A stretch of 64,000 nt of DNA, taken from contig NZ_CADAJR010000006.1 in the NCBI RefSeq assembly GCF_902788255.1, positions 1-64,000 on the forward strand, written 5' to 3'. Shown one piece after another: positions 23,231 to 31,290 of this stretch. A program made the translations under genes and the position numbers. Origin of the DNA: an uncultured Methanobrevibacter sp. (lineage in GTDB: Archaea > Methanobacteriota > Methanobacteria > Methanobacteriales > Methanobacteriaceae). The notes below the pieces were generated by a model that was not told where the DNA came from, did no database searches, and saw nothing but the letters and a program-made list of their open reading frames with translations. Positions within the stretch are counted from its first letter, which is position 1. Every line of letters starts with the position of its first letter.

Positions 23231-23301
23231 TTTTTAGGATACCAAAACATTTATAAATAAAAACATTGTTATATAACAATAGTTATTATAACATATGTTA
23301 T
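23231..23301 (+). promoter_or_regulatory. cysK promoter and GTTATATAAC operator
   Basis: ACCAAAACATTTATA (23241-23255) contains the BRE and TATA box. Downstream come a perfect 16-bp palindrome ATTGTTATATAACAAT (23265-23280) and a perfect 14-bp palindrome ATAACATATGTTAT (23288-23301). The first lies about 25 bases after the TATA box, on the expected transcription start. The same 15-base promoter block and the GTTATATAAC motif recur before metY; the motif also recurs before cysE. Binding would repress by occlusion (inference). Confidence 0.7.
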
Positions 23302-23367
23302 TTTAACTTTAAAATTAACCCCTTTAAATATGCCTAAAAACAAATTAAATAATAAGGAGAAAAAATC

Positions 23368-24315
23368 ATGGCAAATATTCCAGAATTAAAAAGAGGAGTA
23401 CTTGATAGCATTACCGATGCTATTGGAAACACTCCAATCGTAAGATTAAATAATTTGACTGAAGGTTTAGAGGCTGAAGTGGATGTAAAAATCGAATCAT
23501 TCAACCCAACCGGAAGTGTAAAAGATAGAGTTGCAGTAGCAATGATCGAAGATGCAGAAGAAAAAGGTTTATTAAACGAAAATTCCGTTATCATCGAACC
23601 GACCAGTGGAAACACCGGAATTGGACTTGCATTTGCATCAGCCGCAAAAGGCTACAGGTTAATCTTGACCATGCCTGAAACAATGTCCGTTGAAAGAAGA
23701 AAATTCCTAAGTGTTCTTGGAGCCGAACTGGTATTGACTCCTGGTGCTGATGGAATGGGTGGAGCTATTGCAAAGGCAAAAGAACTAGAAGAAACAACTG
23801 ATGATGCAATCATTTTAGGGCAATTCGACAACCCTGCAAATGTAAAAATCCATGCAGAAACCACCGCTCAGGAAATATTGAGGGATACTGATGGTAATGT
23901 GGATATAGTTATTGCGGGTGTTGGAACCGGAGGAACCATTACAGGAATCGGTAAGGTTTTGAAGGAAGCTGTTCCTGATGTTAAAATAGTGGCAGTTGAA
24001 CCGAAAGATTCCCAAACATTGGCAAAAGGTGAAAAAGGACCTCACAAAATCCAGGGTATCGGTGCAGGATTTGTTCCATCAATCTATGATGCTGACGTCA
24101 TTGATGAGATTATTCCTGTCGAAAATGAGGATGCGGGCAATACATTAATTGCACTTGCAACTAAGGAAGGTATTTTTTCCGGTATCTCATCAGGTGCAGC
24201 AACTTGGGCGGCCTTGGAATTAGCTAAAAAAGAAGAAAATAAAGGTAAAAGGATAATTGCAATATTGCCTGATAACGGTGAGAGATATCTCTCTGTTGAC
24301 TGGTTATTTGATTAA
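23368..24315 (+). CDS. cysK: Cysteine synthase (O-acetylserine sulfhydrylase)
   Basis: A 315-residue PLP enzyme making cysteine from O-acetylserine and sulfide. The PLP lysine is in NPTGSVKDRVAVAMI (near residue 50), the substrate loop is PTSGNTGIGLAFA, and the phosphate loop is GVGTGGTITGIGKV. Length and motifs match CysK/CysM. AAGGAG precedes the ATG. With cysE next, this is a bacterial-type cysteine route; many methanogens instead make cysteine on tRNA. The promoter carries the GTTATATAAC palindromes. Confidence 0.93.
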   Translation: MANIPELKRGVLDSITDAIGNTPIVRLNNLTEGLEAEVDVKIESFNPTGSVKDRVAVAMIEDAEEKGLLNENSVIIEPTSGNTGIGLAFASAAKGYRLILTMPETMSVERRKFLSVLGAELVLTPGADGMGGAIAKAKELEETTDDAIILGQFDNPANVKIHAETTAQEILRDTDGNVDIVIAGVGTGGTITGIGKVLKEAVPDVKIVAVEPKDSQTLAKGEKGPHKIQGIGAGFVPSIYDADVIDEIIPVENEDAGNTLIALATKEGIFSGISSGAATWAALELAKKEENKGKRIIAILPDNGERYLSVDWLFD

Positions 24316-24333
24316 GAATAATTATATATACAT

Positions 24334-24360
24334 AGTGTTATATAATTACTATATAACACT
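24334..24360 (+). promoter_or_regulatory. cysE operator: 10-bp arms, 7-base spacer
   Basis: AGTGTTATAT (24334-24343) and ATATAACACT (24351-24360) are perfect inverted repeats around AATTACT. A TATA-like ATTATATATA (24320-24329) lies just upstream and GGTGAT directly downstream, so the repeat covers the predicted start site and leaves almost no leader. The half-site matches those at cysK and metY. Confidence 0.7.
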
Positions 24361-24369
24361 GGTGATTAA

Positions 24370-25095
24370 ATGAGTATGATTAGTAGGTTGAAAAATGAGA
24401 TAAACACTATCAAAGAAAAGGATCCTGCTTTAAGGTCAACAATTGAAGTTTTCTTTTGTTATCCTGGGTTTTATGCCATTGTATTTCATAGAATAAATCA
24501 TTACTTATGGAATCATTCTTTGAAGTTTTTTGCTCGTTTACTTTCAACTATTAGTCGTTTTCTCACAGGTATTGAAATACATCCCGGAGCCCAATTGGGT
24601 GATAGGGTATTCATCGACCATGGTATGGGTATTGTTATTGGAGAAACCGCCATTGTCGGCGATGATGTATTGATTTATCAGGGAGTGATCCTTGGAGGTA
24701 CAACAACCAAAAAAGTCAAAAGACATCCGACCGTTGAAAAGGGTGTTGTCATTGGCGCAGGCGCTAAAGTTATGGGTAATATCACAATTGGTGAATACTC
24801 TAAAATTGGTACCGGTGCCGTTGTGCTTAAGGATGTCCCTCCTGAATCAACTTGTGTAGGAGTTCCTGGAAGAATTGTTAGATGTAAAAATCAAAGTCAT
24901 GTTGTTGATTTAGAACATAATAAATTGCCGGACCCTGTTGCAGCAGCAATAAGACGTTTAGAAAAACAAATTGAAGACAATGAAAAACTTATTGAAATTC
25001 TTCTTGATAAGAATGGAATATGTTTGACAGATGACCAAATTGAAGATGAACTTCGTTTTGGAGGTCTATTAGGACGTGATGGTGATAAAAAATGA
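24370..25095 (+). CDS. cysE: Serine O-acetyltransferase
   Basis: A 241-residue hexapeptide-repeat enzyme acetylating serine to O-acetylserine for CysK. The helical N-domain (residues 1-65) includes CYPGFYAIVFHRINHYLW; the beta-helix has IDHGMGIVIGETAIVGDDVLIYQG with the catalytic Asp/His pair, then GAGAKVMGNITIGEYSKIGTGAVV. A C-terminal tail of about 60 residues is longer than in the shortest (EpsC-like) forms. It overlaps the following regulator by 4 bases. Confidence 0.92.
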   Translation: MSMISRLKNEINTIKEKDPALRSTIEVFFCYPGFYAIVFHRINHYLWNHSLKFFARLLSTISRFLTGIEIHPGAQLGDRVFIDHGMGIVIGETAIVGDDVLIYQGVILGGTTTKKVKRHPTVEKGVVIGAGAKVMGNITIGEYSKIGTGAVVLKDVPPESTCVGVPGRIVRCKNQSHVVDLEHNKLPDPVAAAIRRLEKQIEDNEKLIEILLDKNGICLTDDQIEDELRFGGLLGRDGDKK

Positions 25096-25466
25096 AACCA
25101 CCTTGTGAAATTGTAGTTTGGTATGTTATACCTGCTATTAGATCAGAATTAGCAAAAGAACTATTAAACTTGGGTATGAAACAGAAAGATGTTTCTGAAC
25201 TTATGGATATAACTCAGCCTGCTGTTTCTCAGTACATCACTGATAAACGTGGAAGCGGAATAAAACTTGATGATGATGTTAGGGCAATGATACATGAGTT
25301 TGCTCGTCAATTATCTGAAGGGGAAGCTACCAAAGCTGATTTGATTCCGAGAACCTGTGCAATCTGTAAAAATGTCAGAACAGTTGATGTTTTAGAACAG
25401 CTTAATATTGATAAGTCTGACCTTGGAGATGATTGTCAATCATGTTTGGGTTCCGAAGCGGAATAG
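25092..25466 (+). CDS. HTH regulator with C-terminal cysteine pairs (COG2522-like)
   Basis: A 124-residue protein. Residues about 18-70 form an XRE-type helix-turn-helix (ELAKELLNLGMKQKDVSEL, then ITQPAVSQYI). The C-terminus has two CxxC pairs, CAICKNVR and DCQSCLG, suited to zinc or an iron-sulfur cluster. It resembles the archaeal COG2522 predicted regulators. The ATG overlaps the cysE stop (ATGA), so it is made with CysE and is the natural candidate to bind the GTTATATAAC sites and sense sulfur, cysteine or redox state. That link is inference. Confidence 0.75.
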   Translation: MKPPCEIVVWYVIPAIRSELAKELLNLGMKQKDVSELMDITQPAVSQYITDKRGSGIKLDDDVRAMIHEFARQLSEGEATKADLIPRTCAICKNVRTVDVLEQLNIDKSDLGDDCQSCLGSEAE

Positions 25467-25539
25467 TAAAATATTGGAAAAAATAGTAAAGTATTTAAAC
25501 TATAAATGACCAATATTTTATTATACTTTTAATTTTAGT

Positions 25540-25610
25540 GGCAAGTTTACCGAGTGGCTAGGTGTGTGGCTGCAGACCATAATACGGGGGTTCAAGTCCC
25601 TCACTTGCCT
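25540..25610 (+). tRNA. tRNA-Cys (GCA)
   Basis: The acceptor stem GGCAAGT (25540-25546) pairs with ACTTGCC (25603-25609). The anticodon loop reads CTGCAGA, anticodon GCA for cysteine, and the T-arm is GGGGG-TTCAAGT-CCCTC. Discriminator T at 25610; CCA is not encoded. It lies between the cysE-regulator genes and cysS, an unusual and meaningful location. Confidence 0.93.
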
Positions 25611-25641
25611 TTTTAATTACTTTTTTTCGAGGTTTTTATTT

Positions 25642-26988
25642 ATGGACGTTTATTCAACTTTAACTCGTAGTAAAGAGAATTTTGTGACTATTAATAATAA
25701 CAGAGTTAATTTATTCGTATGTGGTCCAACTGTATATGATGATGCACACATTGGACATGGAAGGACATACATTTCTTTTGATACCATAAAAAGATATCTG
25801 GAATATAAGGGGTATGCTGTATTTTATATCCAAAACATTACAGATATTGATGATAAGATTATCAACAGGTCAAAGGAAAGCGGAATTCCCGCACATGATC
25901 TGGCTCGCAAGTATGAAAAACGTTATCAGGAGGACATGCATAAATTAAATGTCAATGGCGTTAATTTATTTGCAAGAGCAACCGACCATGTTGATGAAAT
26001 ATTGGACCAAATTCAAAGATTAATAGATAAAGGTTTTGCTTATGAAACCGAAGATGGAGTTTACTTTGAAATAGACAAATTCCCTGAATTCGGTAAGCTA
26101 TCAAACAGAAACATTGAAGAGCTTGAATCCCACAGGGACTTGGCCGATACAACAAAGAAAAATCCACAGGACTTTGCGCTTTGGAAAAAACGTGAAGGTG
26201 TAGATGAACCTACATGGCCATCTCCATGGGGAGACGGAAGGCCTGGATGGCACATAGAAGATACTGCAATAACCGAATACTACTTCGGACCTCAGTATGA
26301 TGCCCACGGTGGAGGTTTGGATTTGATATTCCCTCACCACGAAGCGGAAATTACTCAGATGGAAGCGGTATCAGGAAAAGCTCCAATGGTCAAATTCTGG
26401 TTGCACACTGGATTTTTAAATGTTAACGGGGAAAAGATGTCAAAATCCCTTCATAACTTCATTACAATCCGTGAACTGCTTGAGGATTGGGATGCTGAAA
26501 CTTTCAGATTCTTTGTATTGTCAACTCATTACAGAAGCCCTATTGACTTTTCAAAAGATTCACTTCACCAGTCTGAAAAAAGCCTGGACAGAATCAGGAA
26601 ATATTACGAGCTTTTAGATGTTGATGTTGATGAGGAAAAATACGAATCAGATGTATTGGCACCTCATAAGGAAGAATTCTTCAACAGTATGGATGATGAC
26701 TTCAATACTCCAAAGGCTATTGCGGCAATCTTTGGATTAATCAATGACACCAAAAACGATTTGGATAATTTATCCGATCAGGATAAGATTGCCATCAAGG
26801 CATTTCTTGATGATGCGGCACATATTTTTGGTGTTAGCTTTGAAATTCAGGAAGTTAATGCAGGTTCAGATGACTTGCTTGACTTGATTGGTGAAGTCAG
26901 ATCAGAGCTAAGAGCCAACAAGCAATATGACTTATCCGATAAAATCCGTGATAGTTTACAGGCTTTAGGATACGAAATCAACGATTAA
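25642..26988 (+). CDS. cysS: Cysteinyl-tRNA synthetase
   Basis: A 448-residue class I synthetase. HIGH-type motif: CGPTVYDDAHIGHGRTY near residue 28; KMSKSLHNF near residue 270. In the zinc site, the bacterial GWHIEC is GWHIED here, so one Cys ligand is Asp, as I recall for some archaeal enzymes; HHEAE supplies the other ligands. I start at ATG 25642; an upstream in-frame start would overlap tRNA-Cys. Its presence means Cys-tRNA is made directly rather than only via phosphoseryl-tRNA. Confidence 0.94.
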   Translation: MDVYSTLTRSKENFVTINNNRVNLFVCGPTVYDDAHIGHGRTYISFDTIKRYLEYKGYAVFYIQNITDIDDKIINRSKESGIPAHDLARKYEKRYQEDMHKLNVNGVNLFARATDHVDEILDQIQRLIDKGFAYETEDGVYFEIDKFPEFGKLSNRNIEELESHRDLADTTKKNPQDFALWKKREGVDEPTWPSPWGDGRPGWHIEDTAITEYYFGPQYDAHGGGLDLIFPHHEAEITQMEAVSGKAPMVKFWLHTGFLNVNGEKMSKSLHNFITIRELLEDWDAETFRFFVLSTHYRSPIDFSKDSLHQSEKSLDRIRKYYELLDVDVDEEKYESDVLAPHKEEFFNSMDDDFNTPKAIAAIFGLINDTKNDLDNLSDQDKIAIKAFLDDAAHIFGVSFEIQEVNAGSDDLLDLIGEVRSELRANKQYDLSDKIRDSLQALGYEIND

Positions 26989-27258
26989 GGGAATTAATTT
27001 CTCTTCTTTTTTTTATTATTTTTTTGCTGTTTTTTTACATTTTTTAATTGTTAATGTAATATATTTTTAACAAATTTAACAAACTAAAAACAATATTGAT
27101 TTGAGCTTATTTTTTTCTAAACCGACCTAAATATTGTTTTAGACTCATATAGAAAGATTTATATTCTTTTTTAATCTAATTGAATATTGCAAAATAAAAT
27201 TTTTAGAAAATACTTGATTTAAGGGATTTTGTATTTTTCAAAAATTGGAGGAAAAATA

Positions 27259-27837
27259 ATGTTTGGCATATATTCTAATCAAAGATTAAGTGAAAATGAA
27301 AGACGCTTGCTGAATTCCAATCCTGATGATTTAAACTGGTATTGTGTAATTGTGCAGACAATATTCAAGGACCGCAGAGTTTTCCAGATCAGACAGGACA
27401 TTGAACTTCCGCAAGATGATGATGACAACGGTGTTGTTTTGATGTTTGAAGATTCTGACGTGGTTTACTTGAAAAGCATTGAAGGGGAAGTTACTCAGGA
27501 TGATTTTCAGTCTATTACGAAAGTTTGCACTTTTTTGGCTGATAAATTCAAACGTCCCATAAGTGCTTATATTCCATGTGCCCCTTTTAAGAATCTGGAT
27601 TTTGATGTGGAAAAAAATGGCAGGGAAATTACGATGTTTTTCAGCTGTTTGGATGTGGATGATGGTGAGGAAATAATCGACAGATTGGAAACCAAACTTA
27701 AAAATCATGAGGAGTTCACAATTCATGATTCAATCGAACATATGCTTCTTCCCTACAGGGGCTACAAGGATAGGGATGTCTTTTATGAAAAGCTTCACCA
27801 TTACAGGCAACTAATAGAGGAATTTGATTTTGATTGA
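27259..27837 (+). CDS. Unknown protein A of a tandem paralog pair
   Basis: A 192-residue acidic soluble protein with no recognised family. It resembles the protein encoded 13 bases downstream: both have a central V-C-x-FL helix (KVCTFLADKF against EVCKFLQESF), a following PC- or CEP segment, then a beta strand with FFSC or TFSS, and an acidic-basic helix ending in FTIHD or FTIDD followed by LPY or LPF. ATG 27259 has GGAGG at 27247-27251. It may be part of the sulfur region only by position. Confidence 0.55.
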   Translation: MFGIYSNQRLSENERRLLNSNPDDLNWYCVIVQTIFKDRRVFQIRQDIELPQDDDDNGVVLMFEDSDVVYLKSIEGEVTQDDFQSITKVCTFLADKFKRPISAYIPCAPFKNLDFDVEKNGREITMFFSCLDVDDGEEIIDRLETKLKNHEEFTIHDSIEHMLLPYRGYKDRDVFYEKLHHYRQLIEEFDFD

Positions 27838-27850
27838 TTGGAGTGATTGT

Positions 27851-28459
27851 ATGTTTAAATATGAAAAGGAAAACTATGAAGTAAAAGATTTGGAAGACCG
27901 GCTATACTATGAGGTAATGTTCGGTAAGGTTTGTGGGGTGTACTCACCTTTTGAAATAGATAATGATGTTGAATTTCCACACAAGGAAAAATTAGGAGGC
28001 ATCATATTGAAGTTCATTGGAGGGGGAGCAGGATTTTTTAAGGTACAGCGTGAAATGCCTTGTGAAGATGAAGTTGAGAACATATATGAGGTCTGTAAGT
28101 TCCTGCAAGAATCCTTCGGACAATATGTCGTTGCACATATAGTGTGTGAACCCCATATTGAAATCAGGGATATTGAAGTTCCTGGTGATGAGAATATCAG
28201 CATTACATTTTCTTCATCAAGAAAAAATGACGGTGACGCATTGCTGGACGATTTGACTAGAAAGATTGAAATGGGTAAAAAGTTCACCATTGATGATTTT
28301 CTTTTGAAGTTCACTCTCCCGTTCATGTCCCGCAGCAACAATGATGAATTTCAGTCAAGATTCAACCGGTTGGTTGATTTGTACAATAGAAGTGGCATGG
28401 AAGTTCCAAGCTATAAGGATATCTCCAAGTCCAATACCACTTTTAATCGTATATATTAG
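27851..28459 (+). CDS. Unknown protein B of a tandem paralog pair
   Basis: A 202-residue soluble acidic protein, paralogous to the preceding gene product over most of its length, probably from a tandem duplication followed by strong divergence. A Gly-rich stretch GGGAGFFKV replaces the DDDDN region of the partner. It has four cysteines, not arranged as a metal site. No family is recognised. ATG 27851 follows GGAGTGATTGT. A hairpin terminator follows the stop. Confidence 0.55.
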   Translation: MFKYEKENYEVKDLEDRLYYEVMFGKVCGVYSPFEIDNDVEFPHKEKLGGIILKFIGGGAGFFKVQREMPCEDEVENIYEVCKFLQESFGQYVVAHIVCEPHIEIRDIEVPGDENISITFSSSRKNDGDALLDDLTRKIEMGKKFTIDDFLLKFTLPFMSRSNNDEFQSRFNRLVDLYNRSGMEVPSYKDISKSNTTFNRIY

Positions 28460-28490
28460 GAGAGTTTACTCTCTTATTATTTTTTTTAGA
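28460..28490 (+). terminator. Hairpin terminator after the paralog pair
   Basis: GAGAG (28460-28464), loop TTTA, CTCTC (28469-28473), then a T-rich run ending in eight T. Confidence 0.55.
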
Positions 28491-28556
28491 GATTCAAAGT
28501 GATGTAATATAATTTGATATTTTTCAACCGTTTTTTCATTATTTTCAAGAAAATAT

Positions 28557-28690
28557 AACAATGTTTATATACTATTATAACTTATGTTATATTTGTATAA
28601 CAGTGTTTTATCTCAATGTTATATTTTATTTTTGGGTAGACCAAAACATTTATATATAAAAAATAACTATTGTTATATAGTAATATAACA
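28557..28690 (+). promoter_or_regulatory. metY promoter with repeated ATAAC/GTTAT operators
   Basis: ATAACTTATGTTAT (28577-28590) and further GTTAT or ATAAC half-sites lie upstream. ACCAAAACATTTATA (28640-28654) is identical to the cysK promoter block. TGTTATAT (28671-28678), spacer AGTA, ATATAACA (28683-28690) forms an inverted repeat on the expected start site. Layout is the same as at cysK: TATA box, then palindrome. The multiple upstream half-sites suggest cooperative binding. Confidence 0.7.
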
Positions 28691-28732
28691 CGTGATATAT
28701 TTACTAAATTCAATAATAAAGGTGATTATAAA

Positions 28733-30031
28733 ATGACAAATAATAAGAATTACGGATTAGCAACACTAGGTGTTCGTGCAGGACAAAGTCCTGATCCAGC
28801 AACCGGTGCTCAAGCAGTACCAATTTATCAGACTACTTCATATGTATTTAAAGACTCAGATGAAGCTGCAAGGAGATTCGCCCTTCAAGAGTTTGGACAA
28901 ATATATTCCAGACTCACAAACCCTACCAGTGATGTATTTGAAGCAAGAATTGCTGCTATCGAAGGCGGTAACTCAGGAATTTCAACATCAAGTGGTCTTG
29001 CGGCTATTACATATGCAATTTTGAATGTAACTGAACCTGGAGACAATATTGTATCTGCAGACAACCTTTATGGAGGAACATATCAGCTCTTCAACTACAC
29101 ATTTAAGGATCTTGCACGTGAGGTCAAGTTTGTGGACTCACAGGACCTTGAAGCATTTGAAGCGGCTATTGACGATAAAACCAAAGCAATATATGTTGAA
29201 TCAATCGGAAATCCAAAACTCGACGTACCAGACTTTGAGGCACTCTCTGAAATTGCACACTCTCATGACATACCATTGATTGTGGACAACACCGTCGGTG
29301 TCGGACTTGTAAGACCTCTCGAGCATGGTGCAGATGTCATTGCGTCATCAGCAACAAAATATGTGGGAGGACATGGTACAGCAATCGGAGGATACATTGT
29401 TGATTCAGGTAAATTCAACTGGGGAAACGGAAAGTTCCCAAACTTCACAAAACCTGATCCAAGTTACCATGGACTGGTATTTTGGGACACATTCGGAGAT
29501 GTGCCTGAACTTGGAAACCTTGCATTCACATTAAGAATCAGAGCAAGACTTTTAAGAGATATTGGAGCGACTCTGGCACCAGTACACAGTTTCCTATTCC
29601 TACAAGGACTTGAAAGCCTTGATGTACGTGTCAAAAGACACTCCGAAAATGCATTGAAGGTTGCAAAGTTCCTGGAATCACACCCAAAAGTTAAATGGGT
29701 AAACTATCCTGGACTCGAATCCCACCCAACCTATGAAACCAATAAGAAATACCTCAAAGACCACTTTGCAGGAATCTTAGGTTTCGGTGTTGAAGGAGGA
29801 GAGGAAGCTGGAAGAAAGGTAATTGAAAAACTTGAACTGTTCTCAATACTTGCAAACATCGGTGATGCAAAAAGTTTGGCAATACATCCTGCAAGTACAA
29901 CACACCAGCAGTTGACTCCGGAAGAACAGGAAGCAACAGGTGTAACACCTGACTTCATCAGATTGTCCATCGGACTTGAAGATGTGGATGATTTGATTGA
30001 AGATTTAAGTCAAGCTTTAGATAGTATCTAA
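28733..30031 (+). CDS. metY: O-acetylhomoserine aminocarboxypropyltransferase
   Basis: A 432-residue PLP enzyme of the Cys/Met metabolism group that makes homocysteine from O-acetylhomoserine and sulfide. The PLP lysine is K209 in [16 protein letters not shown]; also visible are [14 protein letters not shown], the substrate region [11 protein letters not shown]-like [10 protein letters not shown] and the C-terminal [10 protein letters not shown]. Length (about 430) favours MetY over the shorter cystathionine enzymes. I start at ATG 28733 (GGTGAT at 28721); an upstream frame would read through the operator. Confidence 0.9.
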
Positions 30032-30081: not shown

Positions 30082-31290
30082 ATGTATTTAGATAACTCAG
30101 CAACTACTCAAGTTAGCCAAGAAGTTTACAAAGAAATGGAACCATATTTCATTGAGGAGTTCGGTAATCCGTCAACTCTTTATGGAATTGGCCGTGAATC
30201 TAAAAAGGCATTAAATCTAGCTCGTCAAAGAGTGGCGGATGCAATTAATGCAAAACCGGATGAAATAATCTTTACAAGCGGAGGGTCAGAATCTGATAAT
30301 CTTGCCATTAAGGGTATTGCATTCAAATTAGCTAAAAAGGGCAAACATATTATTACCACCAATATTGAACACCCTGCAGTTAAAAATACATTGGGATTTT
30401 TAGAATCACTTGATTTTAAGGTAACCTACCTGCCAGTCAATGAGGATGGTGTAATTGAAATCGAAGATTTAAAAGAGGCAATCACCGATGAAACCATATT
30501 GATTACTGTAATGCATGCTAACAATGAAATCGGAACCATTCAGCCTATCGGGGAAATCGGTAAAATTGCACGTGAAAAAGGAATCAAATTCCATGTTGAT
30601 GCTGTACAGAGTTTCGGTAAAATTGAAGTGGATGTTGAGAAATTAAACATCGATTTGCTCTCATTGTCTTCACATAAAATCAATGGTCCAAAAGGTGTTG
30701 GAGCACTTTACATTAAAAAAGGAACTCGTGTCGTGCCACTCATTCATGGTGGTGGTCAGGAAAAAGGAATTAGGGGAGGAACTGAAAACGTTCCAGGAAT
30801 TGTCGGATTTGGTAAGGCATGTGAAATTGCAGCTGCCAAATTGGATGAACATTACAAAAAACTATCCTCAATTCGTGATGAACTCATTGACAAGGTATTG
30901 TCCACCATTCCTGAAGCATATCTGAACGGTGGTCTTGAAAACAGATTGCCTAACCTTGTTAACTTCCGCTTCAAAGCTATTGAAGGTGAATCCTTAATTC
31001 TGTTGCTTGATGCTAAAGGTTATCAGGCTTCAACCGGTTCCGCCTGTTCCTCAAATACCTTGGAGGCATCACCGGTACTTACCGCTTTAGGACTTGATCC
31101 TGTTGATGTTCACGGATCACTTAGGATATCACTAGCACCTGAAAGTGATACTTTCGATGTTGATGAATTCGTAAATACCATAGCGGAAGCCGTTAAAAGG
31201 CTAAGGCAGATGTCACCATTATGGAATCAGGAACTAGATTATGACAATATAATGTGTAAAAAACATGAAGACGGATGTAGGAAGTGTTAA
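30082..31290 (+). CDS. nifS: Cysteine desulfurase, NifS/IscS type
   Basis: A 402-residue PLP enzyme releasing sulfur from cysteine for iron-sulfur clusters. K199 lies in SLSSHKINGPKG and the active-site cysteine is C322 in STGSACSSNTLE. Other motifs: LDNSATTQVS at the start and GGGQEKGIRGGTENV. The C-terminus has an extra Cys-rich tail (MCKKHEDGCRKC) that may carry sulfur or metal. GGGAG precedes the ATG; the next gene, the scaffold, begins one base after the stop. Confidence 0.92.
   Translation: MYLDNSATTQVSQEVYKEMEPYFIEEFGNPSTLYGIGRESKKALNLARQRVADAINAKPDEIIFTSGGSESDNLAIKGIAFKLAKKGKHIITTNIEHPAVKNTLGFLESLDFKVTYLPVNEDGVIEIEDLKEAITDETILITVMHANNEIGTIQPIGEIGKIAREKGIKFHVDAVQSFGKIEVDVEKLNIDLLSLSSHKINGPKGVGALYIKKGTRVVPLIHGGGQEKGIRGGTENVPGIVGFGKACEIAAAKLDEHYKKLSSIRDELIDKVLSTIPEAYLNGGLENRLPNLVNFRFKAIEGESLILLLDAKGYQASTGSACSSNTLEASPVLTALGLDPVDVHGSLRISLAPESDTFDVDEFVNTIAEAVKRLRQMSPLWNQELDYDNIMCKKHEDGCRKC

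Follow-up and report, generated by a model that had tools for sequence, protein, structure and literature searches.

A 14-bp operator and a candidate cysteine-rich regulator of a sulfur regulon in the Methanobrevibacter/Methanosphaera family

Three genes for making cysteine and homocysteine, cysK, cysE and metY, lie close together in an uncultured Methanobrevibacter sp. (assembly GCF_902788255.1, contig NZ_CADAJR010000006.1, positions 1 to 64,000, here referred to as “the window”), and they raise the question of whether one regulator controls them, through which DNA site, and how far its control extends. A first-pass annotation reported inverted repeats directly after the TATA boxes of cysK (GTTATATAAC, 23268-23277), cysE (24337-24357) and metY (28672-28689), and these repeats are indeed present. 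We give a probability of roughly 0.7 to the reading that the window contains the centre of a genome-wide regulon for sulfur in the Methanobrevibacter/Methanosphaera family, in which a dimer of a helix-turn-helix (HTH) protein encoded next to cysE would read a common operator and repress transcription.

Comparison of the upstream regions across relatives shows that the constant unit is a 14-mer, ATAAC-N4-GTTAT. Its usual context is the extended profile ATATAAC-WATW-GTTATAT, compiled from 97 intergenic sites in which the half-sites were fixed by the search pattern and the flanks and spacer were free. The window contains four exact copies against 0.12 expected, and 11 copies with at most one mismatch against 2.98 expected (0/100 shuffles in both cases). 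The repeats first reported are made of the right arm of one 14-mer and the left arm of the next, which is why their spacers (0, 7 and 4 bases) differ. In other genera the 14-mer copies at cysK abut (ATAACaattGTTAT-ATAACaatgGTTAT), so that GTTATATAAC is formed at the junction, and we rejected it as the operator. Exact GTTATATAAC occurs only twice in the whole 2.2 Mb assembly, at cysK and within an open reading frame (ORF), and GTTATAT-N0-10-ATATAAC has three occurrences, one each at cysE and metY and one within an ORF. Among the named relatives, half-sites in the GTTAT-first order have spacings scattered over 0, 1 and 3-12 bases, whereas ATAAC-N4-GTTAT is fixed; the 7-base-spaced palindrome of cysE is missing in many of them and did not hold up as a conserved unit.

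Spacing and placement were then counted in 80 named related loci (668 kb), which were chosen for carrying the regulator gene and come from genomes that are not independent, so that they speak to placement and not to co-occurrence. ATAAC and GTTAT were separated by two bases once, by three bases 10 times, by four bases 172 times, by five bases never and by six bases twice. Most of the 172 sites with four-base spacers, 159 in all, are no more than 250 bp upstream of a tested start. An exact site precedes cysK in 43 of 49 cases, metY in 31 of 32 and cysE in 1 of 56; the upstream regions of the control genes cysS (0/54) and endonuclease III (0/41) in these loci have none. The sites are thus kept at orthologous promoters and not scattered at unrelated TATA boxes, contrary to both refuting conditions named in the first-pass annotation. 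Independently, a protein search for moaE in Methanobrevibacter found a perfect site upstream in all 30 genomes examined; both half-sites are perfect and the spacer and flanks vary. At moaE, part of the left arm coincides with the preceding gene's stop codon, and the right arm is clear of it. Among 103 ATAACNWWNGTTAT sites in ten genomes, 97 are not within an ORF, and it is the same sulfur genes that recur downstream of them. Across 83 genomes bearing the regulator, exact ATAACAATWGTTAT was counted 377 times and its reversed control 33 times; it was absent from 13/13 outgroup genomes and from G133, a family genome without the regulator. Genomes without the regulator also have more four-base than three- or five-base spacers (10:3:2 in G133), mostly with G+C-containing spacers.

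The operators are found singly or in arrays, mostly beside or just downstream of the TATA box. The distance from the first T of the TATA box to the operator centre is 21 bp at metY (24 of the 28 relatives measured, and also the window) and 30 bp at cysK (23 of 24). At cysK, operators 1 and 2 stand in a 15-bp register that is maintained in 24 named relatives. At metY, the main operator (ATAACTATTGTTAT) adjoins the TATA box and is nearly invariant within the genus, the second has the form ATAACRCGTGA in 26/32 relatives, and 4-5 near-sites are spaced mostly by 20-23 bp. The cysE operator of the relatives is a degenerate ATACC/T-ATAT-GTTAT overlapping the TATA box; its best match has 1-2 mismatches in 37/39 Methanobrevibacter loci, compared with 3-4 in 39/39 for the cysS control. 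A further element, TTTAGG-N4-CCAAAA, was seen just 5' of the metY TATA box in 24/32 promoters and at 0/54 cysS genes (28630-28648 in the window).

The sites extend far beyond the window. The genome itself has 18 sites with four-base spacers, 4 with three and 5 with five; in view of the similar excess in genomes without the regulator, we did not build on this count alone and turned to the identity of the spacers, the location between genes and the promoters of orthologues. Intergenic sites outside the window include those before rnc-metX, moaE, pdxS, a major facilitator superfamily transporter, a class-II glutamine amidotransferase with glutamate-cysteine-ligase-like genes, and the larE operon, where the site is common to an ATP-grasp gene. 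Another site, before a second cysK (L134), was dropped because its contig (C44, aroA-endonuclease III-cysK) is probably assembly contamination; it is 92-98% identical to Methanobrevibacter olleyae-type genomes. Recurrence was checked in ten more genomes, five from the genus and five from other genera, and the recurring targets are cysK, metY, moaE, the amidotransferase/glutamate-cysteine ligase genes, larE, thiF, thiI, an NMT1-type substrate-binding protein, comA, feoB, pyridoxamine kinase, metX and nifS; TusA-like, metK, NifB-like and rubrerythrin genes were found once each, and pdxS/pdxK are among the site-bearing genes across the genomes examined. In a Methanosphaera genome (G109), two tandem exact sites occupy the divergent cysK/cysE promoter while the regulator gene lies elsewhere, which favours action in trans. 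A sulfur regulon, as the first-pass annotation had proposed, is strongly supported; its description as local did not stand, since the regulon is genome-wide and present in every genus of the family sampled in detail.

Some sites have neighbours of their own. In three Methanobrevibacter genomes (L131, L159, L163) a further dyad, GGAAAAAA ... TTTTTTCC, is conserved on the flanks of the larE operator, and three feoB promoters (L142, L168, L197) carry fuller TTTAGGYNNRCCTAAA repeats resembling a DtxR/IdeR-type iron box. One perfect operator (contig C9:31035; L127:2536) follows a TATA box together with a TTTAGGCAAGCCTAAA repeat and has no ORF after it; this may be an orphan promoter or a small RNA.

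Which protein reads the operator? The gene proposed at first pass encodes 124 residues, and its start codon overlaps the stop codon of cysE (ATGA, 25092-25095). It had been called fused in translation to cysE; the overlap indicates translational coupling, and the two proteins are separate. The Pfam HTH_3 match is marginal (23.1 bits against a curated cut-off of 23.0). In an alignment of 22 homologues, however, the HTH and its recognition segment, ITQPAxSQY, are near-invariant, and the cysteines C5, C89, C92, C115 and C118 are invariant. AlphaFold2 gives an all-helical model with a predicted local distance difference test (pLDDT) score of 81, above 80 for most residues, and with helices 31-38 and 42-49 as the HTH. 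Searches of this model against the PDB with Foldseek gave no match at E <= 0.001, the sequence search of the PDB found no relative, and the cysteine-rich C-terminal domain has no Pfam match. The protein is present in 125 of 139 family genomes and in 77 of the 78 high-quality ones; the exception, G133, also lacks a close CysK orthologue. Among 13 genomes of other families, 12 gave no match and one gave a weak partial match. In another family genome (G138, L066:1425) the gene has an in-frame stop after residue 63, and close CysK and the site are both missing. In Methanobrevibacter the linkage of the gene is to cysE; in several Methanosphaera genomes it stands directly 5' of glutamate-cysteine ligase, and two other genera have it close to homoserine dehydrogenase. 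Of its unlinked copies, two are preceded by a perfect site and four by a site with one mismatch; most have none. Co-occurrence, linkage and the sites before some copies agree with the first proposal, and from them we infer that this protein is likely the reader of ATAAC-N4-GTTAT and a good candidate for it.

The sequences show the operator, the genes it precedes and how well it is conserved; the reader, repression and the signal are inferred, and a mechanism may be sketched as follows. A dimer of the protein would most likely bind ATAAC-N4-GTTAT, and its cysteines near the C-terminus probably act as the sensor of sulfur or Fe-S/thiol status. With sufficient sulfur the protein would sit on the start-site region and repress; under sulfur limitation it would be released from the operator. 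The archaeal start site is expected in the region covered by the operator, and the distances of 21 bp at metY and 30 bp at cysK place the operator over that region. The site adjoining the TATA box suggests repression, and cooperative binding of a dimeric repressor would be the best reading. As to the signal, the cysteines kept in all homologues and the kinds of genes targeted point to sensing of Fe-S, thiols or metal, or of O-acetylserine/cysteine. Several findings fit this less well. The feoB and distal metY operators do not look like simple start-site blocking, being well away from the proximal promoter or 5' of it, and activation at such promoters is possible. The regulator gene itself often lacks an upstream site; cysE, which is coupled to that gene, has only a degenerate one; two genomes (G101, G120) have the protein and cysK and no site at cysK. 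In addition, a few sites in the genome itself have no sulfur gene nearby, and the sampled outgroup genomes are higher in G+C than the family.

Could the pattern arise otherwise? The upstream regions are very A+T-rich and the half-sites contain TAT, so a TATA-like or initiator sequence that is palindromic by chance might be suspected. This is hardly credible and is already contradicted, because the spacing is exactly four with an invariant C and G, the control promoters have zero sites, and the shuffle tests and the reversed-pattern control agree. An RNA hairpin (AUAAC-loop-GUUAU) in the 5' leaders is very improbable as well. The 18-mer could form a 7-bp stem of about -3.3 to -3.9 kcal/mol, but this is weak; some sites are located 5' of TATA boxes or within divergent promoters (such as cysK/cysE in Methanosphaera), and the half-sites at moaE are letter-perfect in 30/30 with no compensating changes, on which ground we rejected the hairpin.

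Two further alternatives accept the operator. In one, the operator and regulon are real and another transcription factor of the same distribution is the reader, with the HTH gene being a target or having another role. The connection between protein and site comes from sequence comparison, and the regulator copies without sites and the two genomes without a cysK site fit such a reader; on the other side, the HTH gene is linked to sulfur genes in three different contexts, protein and site share their pattern of presence and absence, sites precede some unlinked HTH genes, and the recognition helix is near-invariant across the range where the site is invariant. We regard another reader as rather unlikely. 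A possible, if doubtful, alternative keeps the same protein and site and makes the protein an activator, or a position-dependent repressor and activator acting through cooperative arrays. The array of near-sites at metY and the feoB sites upstream of the probable TATA box and the iron-box-like repeat point that way, and SurR, a known archaeal sulfur regulator, both represses and activates (PMC12162507). The commonest position, immediately downstream of the TATA box, is however where binding should hinder RNA polymerase, and we retain repression by the HTH dimer as the preferred reading.

The window corresponds to contig C6 of an assembly of 69 contigs, and its closest named relatives are Methanobrevibacter metagenome-assembled genomes, many of them ruminant-derived. 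The gene order is aroA, endonuclease III, cysK, cysE, the HTH gene, tRNA-Cys, cysS, two paralogues, metY and nifS (Table 1); cysK, cysE, metY and nifS were named from NCBIfam models, and aroA, endonuclease III and cysS by eye from their translations. The nifS/iscS gene is probably on the metY transcript. The two adjacent paralogous ORFs (27259-28459) between cysS and metY are 27% identical and have no Pfam or NCBIfam match; related copies precede metY in several relatives. A second metY-like gene, 61% identical, is found on contig C7 (58279-59541; L135), with no operator upstream.

Table 1. Promoter elements, operators and genes of the cysK-metY region (positions in the window).
Feature	Position	Strand	Basis
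TATA box of cysK, preceded by BRE-like (B recognition element) ACCAAAACA	23250..23259	+	sequence
Degenerate operator half at cysK, AAAAACATTGTTAT, whose GTTAT forms the left arm of GTTATATAAC as first reported	23259..23272	+	
Operator 1 of cysK, ATAACAATAGTTAT	23273..23286	+	
Operator 2 of cysK, ATAACATATGTTAT	23288..23301	+	
cysK, cysteine synthase A	23368..24315	+	TIGR01139
TATA box of cysE	24322..24330	+	sequence
Degenerate cysE operator, ATACATAGTGTTAT, with 2 mismatches and an overlap with the TATA box	24328..24341	+	
Weak second operator at cysE, ATAACACTGGTGAT, 1 mismatch	24353..24366	+	
cysE, serine O-acetyltransferase	24370..25095	+	TIGR01172
Candidate regulator, XRE-type HTH with invariant cysteines	25092..25466	+	Pfam HTH_3, alignment, AlphaFold2
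tRNA-Cys (GCA), between candidate regulator and cysS	25540..25610	+	
Upstream operator of metY, ATAACAATGTTTAT, 1 mismatch	28555..28568	+	
Upstream operator of metY, ATAACTTATGTTAT	28577..28590	+	
TATA box of metY	28649..28658	+	sequence
Main operator of metY, ATAACTATTGTTAT	28663..28676	+	
Second operator of metY, ATAACACGTGATAT, 1 mismatch, 22 bp downstream register	28685..28698	+	
metY, O-acetylhomoserine/O-acetylserine sulfhydrylase	28733..30031	+	TIGR01326
nifS/iscS cysteine desulfurase, directly 3' of metY	30082..31290	+	TIGR03402

We lean, less firmly, towards a wider role, in which the protein, with its XRE-type HTH and a sensor of five cysteines, would be an archaeal master regulator not described before, coordinating sulfur and Fe-S homeostasis across the Methanobrevibacter/Methanosphaera family. 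Its scope would cover cysteine/methionine, gamma-glutamylcysteine and coenzyme M synthesis, sulfur transfer to cofactors and tRNA, pyridoxal phosphate (PLP) supply and iron uptake. For this group, the open-access literature searched, on the motif, on COG2522 and on sulfur regulators of methanogens, gave no description of the motif or of a regulator of sulfur assimilation. Few transcription factors with known operators are available in methanogens, and here a 14-bp operator, one candidate protein and a target list are united in the archaea that make most of the methane in human and ruminant guts. The regulon ties cysteine synthesis to coenzyme M, molybdopterin, Fe-S/PLP supply and a glutathione-like thiol, and it predicts a response of gut methanogens to sulfide or cysteine. 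If the wider role is true, the dominant gut methanogens would have one system of sulfur and Fe-S homeostasis.

Among known systems, the regulons of CysB, CymR and IscR/SufR are comparable in covering cysteine synthesis, sulfur transfer, transport and Fe-S supply. These regulators belong to the LysR, Rrf2 or other families, unlike the candidate, in which neither Pfam nor NCBIfam matched a LysR or Rrf2 domain. With the XRE/HTH_3 proteins of the lambda/434 Cro-CI type it shares the HTH_3 match just over the cut-off, and it adds a cysteine-rich C-terminal domain. The 434 repressor has a 14-bp dyad operator, like the 14-mer described here. SurR of the Thermococcales is an ArsR-like winged HTH protein recognizing GTTn3AAC or GTTn3AACn5GTT (PMC12162507). 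The two are alike in concerning archaeal sulfur genes, in a short palindromic site near promoters and in CxxC motifs (PMC12162507). However, SurR is of another HTH family and has its CxxC in the N-terminal DNA-binding domain; in the candidate, HTH_3 and no ArsR-like winged HTH was found, and the CxxC pairs are C-terminal. The sites also differ, GTT and AAC being three bases apart for SurR, while the putative operator of the candidate is ATAAC-N4-GTTAT. By the features tested, the candidate is thus outside SurR, CysB, CymR and IscR, and where SurR controls S0 reduction and hydrogenases, the regulon described here concerns cysteine synthesis.

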